NCBI GenBank assembly: GCA_024710565.1
Contig: JANJUN010000006.1
Span: 1 to 45,139, forward strand
Reading direction: 5' to 3'
From: Candidatus Altimarinota bacterium
GTDB lineage: Bacteria; Patescibacteriota; Gracilibacteria; BD1-5; UBA6164
Length of the DNA: 45,139 nucleotides
The notes under the pieces are model-generated. The model was not told where the DNA came from. It searched no databases and saw only the letters and a program-made list of their open reading frames with translations. Shown here in pieces: positions 38,613 through 42,208 of the stretch. Within the stretch, counting starts at the first letter, position 1; the number at the start of each line of letters is the position of its first letter. The position numbers and the translations under genes were made by a program.

Positions 38613-39320
38613 ATGGAAACGATTAGAATACATAAATACCTCTCACAAGCATGAATTTGTTCGCGCAGAAAGGCAGAAGAATATATTGCGGCAGGACTGA
38701 TAACCGTAAATGGAAAAACAGCCCAAATTGGACAAATGATAGATCCAACTATTGATAAAGTTGAAATGTGAAAAGAGGCCATTCAAGAACAAAAAGAACT
38801 TTTGTATTATAAAGTGAATAAACCAAGAGGAGTTGTTACTACATGCGCACAAAGTGATGAAAAAACTATTCTGGATGTCATTCCTCTCGATAAAAGAGTC
38901 TTTCCTATAGGAAGACTCGATAAAGATACGACGGGTCTTATTTTAATGACCAACGATGGAAGGTTGGCAAATTTTTTGATGCATCCGCGTTATAATCATG
39001 AAAAAGAATATATTGTTGAAACTTTTTGACCGATTTCAGATGATAATTTGGAAAAAATGAGAAACGGACTTTTTATTCTCGGGAGTTATACGAAAAAAGC
39101 AAAAATAGAAAGAGTATCGTCAGGAAAATTTAGTATTATTATCTCAGAATGAAGAAATAGGCAGATAAGAAGAATGGTAGAAAAAGTTGGAAGTATCGTA
39201 AAAAAATTAAAAAGAATTCGTATAGAAAACATAGAACTTTGAAATATGAAAGAGGGAGATTATAAAGCTCTGACTCAAAAAGAAAAAGACGAATTATTTC
39301 AAAGGTTGAATATACAATAA
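38613..39320 (+). CDS. RluB/RsuA-family 16S/23S rRNA pseudouridine synthase
   Basis: The 235 residues comprise an S4 RNA-binding domain (about 1-60: 'IRIHKYLSQAGICSRRKAEE') and a catalytic domain with 'KPRGVVTTC' and the active-site block 'PIGRLDKDTTGLILMTNDG' (Asp, about 101), plus 'SEGRNRQIRRMVEKVG'. It isomerises a specific uridine in rRNA. The family covers RluB, RluE, RluF and RsuA; the target base cannot be assigned from the sequence. It ends exactly at a terminator that also serves the opposite-strand minigene. Confidence 0.93.
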
Positions 39321-39346
39321 AAAGCCCCCCTTATGGGGAGCTTTTA
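39319..39346. terminator. Bidirectional terminator
   Basis: AAAAGC (39320-39325) with GCTTTT (39340-39345) and CCCC with GGGG form a stem around TTAT, flanked by A and T runs. It ends the pseudouridine synthase on the plus strand and the small SD-led unit on the minus strand. Confidence 0.7.
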
Positions 39347-39371
39347 ATTTTCCAATAGCAAACCTTTTTCA

Positions 39372-39450
39372 TTACTGATAGACTTCTCGTGTTCTATCAG
39401 AGATATGGGATCACCTCCTCTCAGTTAGTTGTTTGACCATGATTTTTCAT
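39372..39450 (-). CDS. SD-led minigene: one or two overlapping very short peptides
   Basis: On the minus strand a strong SD (AAGGAGG, 39464-39458) lies 7 bp before ATG 39450. That frame gives MKNHGQTTN, then TGA (Gly in code 25), then EEVIPYL, TGA and TAG at 39394: 18 residues, or 9 under the standard code. An ATG ten bases later (39440) opens a second frame of 22 residues under code 25 (MVKQLTERR, TGA, SHISDRTREVYQ), ending at 39372. A second, even better SD complement (AGGAGGTGATCC, 39419-39408) sits inside both, followed by a hairpin (CTGATAGA/TCTATCAG) and a terminator. A coding role is plausible; a regulatory RNA is equally possible. Confidence 0.4.
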
Positions 39451-39483
39451 GACGACACCTCCTTACGATAGAAATTGGTAATT

Positions 39484-39512
39484 AGATAATAGTAAAATAA
39501 AATAAATGTCAA
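39484..39512 (-). promoter_or_regulatory. Promoter of the minus-strand minigene
   Basis: TTGACA (39512-39507, minus strand) with TATTAT after 15 bp or TTATCT after 17 bp as the -10. It is 20-30 bp before the SD at 39464. Confidence 0.5.
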
Positions 39513-39571: not shown

Positions 39572-42208
39572 ATGATTATTGCGCTTGATTTAGAAACGAC
39601 AGGAATTGACCCAAAAAATGATAAAATTCTCGAAGTAGCTCTCGTAAAATTTGACGAAACTACCTTTGAAATTATAGATACATTTTCTACTCTTATCAAT
39701 CCTTGAATACCTATTCCAGAGATAATTTCAAATATTACTAATATTTTTGATAGAGACGTTGAAAATGCTCCTATTTTAAATGATGAATATAAAGAAAAAA
39801 TAGAGGATTTTATACAAGACTTCCCTATTTTATGACACAATACTAATTTTGATAGAGATTTTTTAATTCAAAATGGGATAGATATAAAAGAAAATATTGT
39901 TTTGGATACTTTTGTTTTGGCAAATATCGTATTTCCGTATGAAAAATCATTAAATCTGTGAAATCTTTGTGAGAGTTTTTCCATAGATTTACAAGATGCT
40001 CATAGAGCCCTTGATGATACCAAGGCAACGATTGCCTTATTTCAAGTAATAACTCAAAAATTTTTACAACTTTCTCAGGATAAGAAAGATATTTTAAATT
40101 TTATATTTTCCAAGTCTCATATTCAATCATTTTCTTTTTATAAAAATTATTTTCACTTTTCTTTAGATGTTATTGATGAGGAAAAATTTATCAAAAAAAT
40201 ATTAAAAACTATTGGAAAGTATAGCACAAAAGAAAATCCAGAAATATTTTTTGAAAAAGAAATTAATAATGATTTGATTCGTGATATATTTCAATCTCTT
40301 CCCAATTCAGAACTCAGGGAAAATCAACTTCAAATGGCGTATAAAATAAAAGAAGTACTCTTTGATGATAAAAAAATTGCCATCGAAGCACCTACTTGAG
40401 TTGGAAAAACTTTTGCCTACCTTATTCCGTCTTTATTAAAAGCACTCAAACACGATGAACAAGTTATTATCTCAACGCATACAAAAGCTTTGCAAGACCA
40501 AATTTTTTATAAAGACCTACAATTTTTAGAACAACATTTTCCTCACTCATTTCAATATTCAAAACTAAAATGAAGAAAAAACTATCTTTCAGTTTTGAGA
40601 TACTTTGAATTTATTTTAGATACTGGGAGTTTTCAAATAGATGAAATTTGATTTATATCAAAAATTTCTTTATGGCTTTTTGATACCGAGTTTTGAGAGC
40701 TCGATGAGCTTAATTTTTATCCTCAAGAACAATATTACCTAAAAAATATTCATTCGGATCACTTTTTGGTGCTTTTTGATAGTAATGAATATAAAATGTA
40801 TGAATATGTTTTTAAAGCAAGAAGTCATGCTCTTACCTCTCAAATAGTTGTCATAAATCACTCGCTTTTGATTCAAGACAAAGCATCGCTACAGCCAATT
40901 TTTGGACATATTCAAAATCTTATAATAGACGAGTGACATAATATAGAAGATACTCTTACGGATGCTATGATAAAAAGTTTCTCTTTACAAAGCTTAAAAG
41001 ACTCTATTTCTCATGTCGAAAATACACTCAAAAAACAAAATTTTCCAATAGACAACATTGACAAAAAATTTGAAAATCTCTTTTTGCAAATCAACTTTCT
41101 TTTCGATATGTTTTTTTACTATGCACAAAAACAAAATACTTTTGGAAATGAGGTTTTTCAAGCGCTTATAGAAATGAATTTTTTTACTGAAAACGAAAAT
41201 ATTCAATCCCTTTGTCACACGATTGAAATTCAATATATAGAAATATTTAATCACCTTCAAACTTCACCTGATAAAGTATTTCAAGCTCTTAAAACAGAAA
41301 TTTCAAATTTTGAAGAGGTCATACAGATTATAAAAATATGTACATCAAAAGAATCCCTTCAGACATATATTCCTATTTTTTCTATACAAAAAAATGGAAA
41401 TAATATTTTGTATTATACCGTTCTCAATCCAGGAATATTTTTACAAACGATTCTTTGGGATAAGGTAGAAAGAGTTGCTCTTACCTCAGCAACACTTCAA
41501 ATTCAAAATTCTTTTGAATATATAAAAAATACCCTCCATCTCCAAGATTTTGATTTTTTATCACTCGAGAGTGATTTTGATTATAGCACTCAGGCGCTTT
41601 TGTTTATTCCGAATGATTTAGGGTCTATAAAATATAACAATCCTAAAATTAACGAATTTGTTTTATCATTCCTTACTATCATGAAAGGAAAAACGCTTAT
41701 TTTAATGACGAGTTTTAATGCGATTCGTGATCTATATCTTACTCTTAATCTTCCGCTCAAAAAAATAGGAACTACGGTTTTAGCACAATGAGTATGATGA
41801 AGTAAGCATAAAATAGCAAATCACTTTAAAAAGCATTCATCTACGAGTGTTATACTTTGAACCGATAGTTTTTGGGAGGGGGTTGATATTCCTTGAGATG
41901 ATTTGAAATACTTATTTATTCATAAATTTCCTTTTTTGGTTCCAACAGATCCTATTTTTAAAGCCAGAGGAAAACTTTATAATGATCCATTTCGAGACTA
42001 CTCTATTCCCAAGGCAATTATAAAAACTCGCCAGTGATTTGGAAGGCTTATTCGTACCAAACAAGATACAGGAATTGTTATTTTGCTTGATGATAGATAT
42101 TATTCCACATCTTGGGGGACGCTTATGAGAGCTAGTTTTCCTCATGATATAAAAATAAAAATGGGAAATTCGCAAAATTTTTTAGAATTATTAAAAAGTA
42201 AGTTTTAG
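39572..42208 (+). CDS. dinG: DnaQ-like exonuclease fused to DinG-type helicase
   Basis: The 878-residue protein begins with a DEDD 3'-5' exonuclease domain (about 1-165: 'LDLETTGID', 'GHNTNFDRDFL', 'DAHRALDDTKAT'). The rest is a superfamily 2 XPD/DinG helicase: P-loop 'APTGVGKTFAYLIP' (about 274), 'ISTHTKALQDQ', Walker B 'LIIDEGHNIED' (DEGH instead of DEAH), 'TSATL', 'SFWEGVDIPG' and 'RQGFGRLIRTKQDTG'. The iron-sulfur cysteine cluster of Gram-negative DinG is not seen. This layout is the one of Gram-positive DinG, which acts as an exonuclease on single strands. The ATG at 39572 is used because the one at 39564 runs into TAG. Confidence 0.93.

Follow-up and report, generated by a model that had tools for sequence, protein, structure and literature searches.

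The window, by which we mean the whole 45,139-nt stretch of DNA analyzed here, belongs to a CPR bacterium using genetic code 25 (TGA = Gly); long open reading frames are seen only when TGA is read as glycine. On its minus strand, a real, standalone transcription unit is found between the convergent pseudouridine synthase gene and the divergent gene for an exonuclease/DinG-type helicase (Table 1). The parts named in the original prediction, namely a TTGACA hexamer, a first Shine-Dalgarno sequence (SD1) with a tiny gene, a second one (SD2) without start codon, a hairpin and a terminator, were all located on this strand. The predicted promoter was borne out in its TTGACA but not beyond it: the −10 box is poor, and a promoter scan detected neither a promoter nor a consensus −10 on the strand of the unit. 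In relatives, the promoter-like region is kept as TGTAAACTTGAC in genome G003 and as AGTAAACTTGAC in G001. Under code 25, the TGA at 39421 does not end the tiny gene, which is read on across SD2 as far as a TAG within the hairpin.

Table 1. Features of the minus-strand unit and its flanking genes (window coordinates)
Feature	Position	Strand	Remarks
Pseudouridine synthase gene	38613-39320	+	convergent with the unit
Transcription unit	39320-39512 (approx.)	-	
Intrinsic terminator	39320-39345	-	at its 3' end, shares the final base of the convergent pseudouridine synthase gene
Hairpin CTGATAGA/TCTATCAG	39375-39400	-	compensatory changes
Conserved ATCT	39401-39404	-	at the start-codon position (AUC instead of AUG)
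SD2, orphan Shine-Dalgarno AGGAGGTGATCC	39408-39419	-	complement of the canonical 16S 3' end
Mini-ORF, standard code	39421-39450	-	MKNHGQTTN; stop TGA (39423-39421) adjoins SD2
Mini-ORF, code 25 (TGA = Gly)	39394-39450	-	MKNHGQTTNGEEVIPYLG; TAG within the hairpin
SD1 TAAGGAGGTG	39456-39465	-	5 nt 5' of the ATG at 39450
Promoter-like sequence	39484-39512	-	TTGACA (39512-39507) and AT-rich −10 region; −10 candidates TATTAT (39491-39486) at 15 nt or TTATCT at 17 nt
Exonuclease/DinG-type helicase gene	39572-42208	+	divergent from the unit

No start codon (ATG, GTG or TTG) is present 3' of SD2 at the spacing of a ribosome-binding site (RBS), and SD2 was accordingly rejected as the RBS of a downstream gene. 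The terminator lies 60 nt 3' of SD2, and no same-strand gene follows it in the window. In the predicted fold of the whole RNA, SD2 is partly masked. A single copy of AGGAGGTGATC is present in the window and none in 100 shuffles, and the decamer GATCACCTCC has a single occurrence in the 1.2-Mb genome; on these grounds, and on the count of SD-led mini-ORFs given below, a chance origin was rejected. Contamination was likewise rejected: the genes of the 45-kb contig around the unit use code 25, and two congeners have the unit in synteny. A candidate second conserved ORF past the hairpin (MKKVCYWKIKSSP) was discarded, its frame and start not being kept in G001, G003 or G069. None of 4227 Rfam covariance models matched the window at gathering score; at relaxed E-values, matches over units were weak, far below gathering scores, and none was relevant. 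A literature text search on AGGAGGTGATCCA was uninformative because this sequence belongs to a common 16S primer.

A short SD-led ORF followed by a hairpin and a terminator is also the layout of trp/erm-type leader-peptide attenuators, in which case translation of the mini-ORF would choose between hairpins and control a downstream gene, and some phage counterparts described below do carry a terminator-like hairpin 5' of a gene. However, the lack of a same-strand gene beyond the terminator, in G001 and G003 as well as in the genome of the window (G000), makes attenuation unlikely. Moreover, in contrast to trp/erm-type attenuators, neither the peptide nor its codons are conserved and the orphan SD is over-long; a run of a regulating codon is missing, and the genes neighbouring different units are unrelated. 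A leader-peptide device, one of the three functions originally suggested, is thus very improbable.

Conservation and recurrence in CPR genomes

Units orthologous to that of the window (G000) were found at diverged loci in G001 and G003, with neighbour proteins 57-94% identical; G063 and G015 form another such pair. The units of G001 (88% identical) and G003 lie at the same place as the window unit. In G002, which belongs to the same genus, the region upstream of the exonuclease/helicase gene holds tRNA genes and no unit. Conservation extends to SD1, the start region, the position of the stop codon, SD2, ATCT and the hairpin. In the hairpin, three of eight pairs are changed on both sides with 100% of cells paired, although four sequences give modest power. 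In the window unit as in the others, the hairpin begins 0-6 nt after ATCT and is kept by compensatory change.

The mini-ORF peptide, on the other hand, is not conserved. It diverges freely, which makes the toxin/immunity minigene of the original prediction unlikely. A functional micropeptide (toxin, immunity or signal), with the SD2 part incidental, would fit the two copies in G069, whose mini-ORFs are shared while their 5' UTRs differ, but peptides, frames and C-termini diverge between orthologous units (G000/G003, G063/G015, G136/G100), and we consider this reading highly improbable.

A covariance model and a pattern search revealed sporadic units across 380 CPR genomes; the groups with named representatives are Gracilibacteria, Kazan and Paceibacterota. 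Their common anatomy consists of SD1, a mini-ORF with a standard stop codon at SD2, then AGGAGGTGATCC, ATCT and the hairpin. When a stop at SD2 is defined as a first standard-code stop at −6 to +14 of the orphan SD (GGAGG), 18 of 20 CPR units have an SD-led mini-ORF of this kind, compared with 5.3% of shuffled upstream sequences; the stops of these 18 lie at −5 to +10, and that of the window unit at −5. The genes neighbouring CPR units are unrelated to each other, as one would predict for an independent RNA gene. In five of six genomes the decamer GATCACCTCC is confined to units, and no hidden partner RNA carrying it is encoded elsewhere in the same genome; the one further copy, in G015, lies in a clpB-like gene and was set aside. 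Weak matches within the order (G038, locus L350; G035; G020) resembled coding sequence and were dropped, and the many exact pattern matches in proteobacteria were discarded as apparently representing one gene coding ..REEVIQYLY.. (DnaE-like).

Several units have individual features. The g13 units of G063 (L351) and G015 (L354) are ∼270 nt long, lie directly 3' of a beta-CASP RNase gene and have a conserved 3' region, GGAAGTCAGG..CTGGC..GGCCCTTC. At locus L494 (G069:C45), the two unit copies, 1.3 kb apart, have near-identical mini-ORFs (MYYNLATSCWWEEVI) but 5' UTRs that have diverged; a protein with M23 peptidase and phage-lysozyme domains is encoded nearby. The Kazan-type units L101 and L102 carry an extra SD and micro-ORF (MSGTSGN and MTVGIGDD) after the hairpin, with a terminator at the end, and in their predicted fold SD2 is paired to the start of the mini-ORF.

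Genetic code, 16S tail and the pairing of SD2

Seven unit copies come from code-25 genomes. Relative to SD2, their first standard-code stops are found at −5, −5, −5, +40, +10, −5 and +5, and their code-25 stops at +22, +43, +10, +40, +10, +148 and +47, so that the stop lies at SD2 in six of seven copies by the standard code (−5 to +10) and in two of seven by code 25. Five of the seven have UGA as their first stop in the standard code, at −5 or +5. Under a random-frame null, such UGA placement has a probability of 0.22-0.27 per lineage, and the apparent preference for a standard-code stop beside SD2 is suggestive only; one copy, G069a, ignores UGA. Across the six unit-bearing genomes of the order, release-factor searches gave one match per genome, below the prfB cut-off, and no RF2, which argues that the organism of the window does not normally read UGA as a stop. 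This is consistent with the reported absence of prfB in Gracilibacteria (PMC6851277).

The 16S rRNA of this organism (G000:C35:29826-31301) has the 3' tail GGACTATCTCC, its 3' end being given as GGATGGACTATCTCCTTA, and lacks CCUCC; across the order, 33 of 77 genomes matched an altered tail of this type. In other families of the same order CTACCTCTTT or CTATCTCTTT is found instead; with the tail of G000 and that of Kazan-type genomes (GGAACACCTCC), these make up a series of anti-SD variants in CPR. None of 102 genes examined over 160 kb of the G000 genome is preceded by an SD, either canonical or fitted to the altered tail. Upstream regions of G000 genes are enriched in A at −12/−11 (63-64%) and in T at −1 (72%), and the share of G falls to 2-8%, a pattern that is possibly the organism's own initiation signal. 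In SR1 relatives and Gracilibacteria, the anti-SD is described as lost or changed and the organisms as 'SD-scarce' (PMC10783764). The organism of the window shares with these a 16S without CCUCC and genes without SDs; whereas that work concerns genome-wide initiation, the unit described here is an exception with a canonical SD inside such a genome.

SD2 had been described as complementary to 12 bases of the normal 16S 3' end. This is true of the canonical 16S but not of the organism's own, which ends in GGATGGACTATCTCCTTA. RNAduplex predicts a pairing energy of −28.9 kcal/mol with the canonical tail and −16.8 kcal/mol with the own tail, and for an SD2 adapted to the own tail the value would be −26.9 kcal/mol. 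With the own tail (GGACUAUCUCC), the GGAGG of SD2 pairs through G-U, and its UGAUC does not follow the tail. The same holds elsewhere. Tails are altered in the window order (CUAUCUCC), in the Kazan-type genomes G136, G100 and G193 (GGAACACCTCC) and in G310 (GGAACGCCTCC), yet SD2 matches the canonical 16S in all of them, being of the GGTGATCC type in the Kazan-type genomes and G310, and in all three lineages pairing is predicted to be better by 9-15 kcal/mol with the canonical than with the own tail. Since three altered-tail lineages keep a canonical SD2, TGATC cannot owe its preservation to pairing with the 16S of its owner. Among the units found, SD2 thus appears tuned to the canonical 16S and not to the owner's, with the qualification that the searches were anchored on GGRGGTGATC and may have missed self-adapted forms (GGAGATAGTCC in the order, GGAGGTGTTCC in Kazan-type genomes). 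Of the two observations that would have counted against the original prediction, a 16S end that no longer matches SD2 was therefore made, while loss of SD2 and hairpin conservation was not, both being conserved. This combination is more interesting than the claim it replaces.

Poor pairing with the owner's ribosome keeps three other readings alive: another binding factor, cis-pairing, and foreign canonical ribosomes. SD2 may not, or no longer, be a ribosome site, GGAGGTGATCYNNNATCT and the hairpin instead binding another conserved factor (a protein or RNase) or pairing in cis with SD1 and the start region or with the unit's own AUCU. This would account for the failure of SD2 to track the 16S of its owner in three lineages. 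Moreover, in the predicted folds of G000 and the two Kazan-type units, UGAUC..AUAUCUC is paired to SD1 and the start region; in the one G069 copy folded, SD2 is paired to its own CUUCUC. However, over 11-12 nt the motif is identical to the complement of the canonical 16S, an SD1 mini-ORF that looks translated is retained in every unit, cis pairings are predicted differently from unit to unit, and no partner is known. On balance, we regard either form of this explanation as rather unlikely.

Alternatively, the RNA might act on foreign canonical ribosomes, those of an epibiont's host or prey or those in a shared phage/host setting. There, SD1 would start translation, UGA would stop it and SD2 would capture the ribosome, the producer being spared by its altered anti-SD, SD-free genes and UGA = Gly. 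The absence of SDs from the producer's own genes, the better predicted binding to canonical 16S in all four order copies tabulated, the near-confinement of the decamer to units and the standard-code stop positions are in line with this, and relatives are described as predatory or epibiotic (PMC8080830). No RNA export route is known, however, and the evidence from UGA placement is tempered by its chance level, by copy G069a and by the anchoring of the searches. We consider the idea improbable and its more specific form, in which the RNA of a Gracilibacteria-type epibiont would be a species-selective trap (12-17 nt) for the canonical 16S 3' end of host or prey, with own ribosomes largely insulated, slightly more so.

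Phage counterparts and a proposed terminate-then-park model

In many phages, a stop codon is followed by AGGAGGTGATCC and then, at the place expected for a start codon, by ATCT and a hairpin. The element of Streptococcus phages is one example, with a small gene on one side and the scaffold/capsid genes immediately 3' of it. As the first viral scan had included ATCT, the scan was repeated on TAAGGAGGTGATCC alone, yielding 98 distinct loci. ATCT is found at +2 to +6 in 27 of these (∼2 expected), mostly replacing the start codon, and the next 40 nt fold at −9.3 kcal/mol, compared with ∼−4.9 kcal/mol after true start codons (P = 2e-4). The excess of ATCT and the more stable folding thus indicate that this SD occurs in two kinds of site, namely true RBSs and orphan sites marked by AUCU plus a hairpin. 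At viral loci L383, L425, L450, L457 and L467, an orphan AAGGAGGTGATCC is followed by strong hairpins without ATCT, perhaps a sister type.

An SD without a start codon at RBS spacing is the hallmark of STAB-SD, known from Bacillus thuringiensis cry3A and relatives (Agaisse and Lereclus 1996; reviewed in PMC4113751), where the start-less SD is reported to bind the 30S subunit and block RNase J1 (PMC4113751). The present element resembles STAB-SD in its strong start-less SD able to pair with a 16S 3' end (here the canonical and not the own one), in the presence of the SD in untranslated regions and in the proposed holding of 30S. It differs in that SD2 comes after a stop codon, that of a mini-ORF or of a gene, and is accompanied by conserved ATCT and a hairpin. 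Moreover, whereas STAB-SD sits in the 5' UTR of a protein gene, as some phage copies do, the CPR elements, that of the window included, sit in standalone RNA genes.

By analogy, a STAB-SD-like ribosome-parking element is our best explanation, and we tentatively view the window unit as a small standalone RNA gene built around such a putative element (probability roughly 0.45). A ribosome would initiate at SD1, translate a mini-ORF of arbitrary sequence and terminate beside SD2. The 30S subunit would then be captured by the over-long SD2, and AUC in place of AUG, with a hairpin 0-6 nt further on, would prevent a restart. The parked 30S could shield the RNA, stay out of circulation or both, as in STAB-SD mRNA stabilizers. 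Parking could stabilize capsid mRNA in phages, while the standalone CPR RNA may be a stabilized carrier or a ribosome sink; the phage copies are no proof that the CPR RNA acts alike. The layout, its recurrence, the hairpin covariation, the stop at SD2 and the missing start codon are observed, and to these we add capture of 30S, the effect on stability and the role of the CPR RNA as proposals. The parking model is strained in the organism of the window, as its own ribosomes are predicted to bind SD2 much less well and UGA is not their normal stop.

The original observation was largely right, and the unit is out of the ordinary. Of the functions first envisaged, a ribosome-binding or decoy RNA fits best, given the conservation of SD1, the start region, the stop position, SD2, ATCT and the hairpin, in contrast to the peptide. 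The findings point to an undescribed RNA class, absent from Rfam and recurring in CPR, with a related junction motif in phages, and would broaden the STAB-SD concept to elements of a 'terminate, then park' type. The copy in the window places canonical translation signals in a genome without SDs and with a changed anti-SD and stop code. It thereby offers a natural experiment on what the pairing partner of the orphan SD is and on whether RNAs directed at other cells are produced by CPR epibionts.
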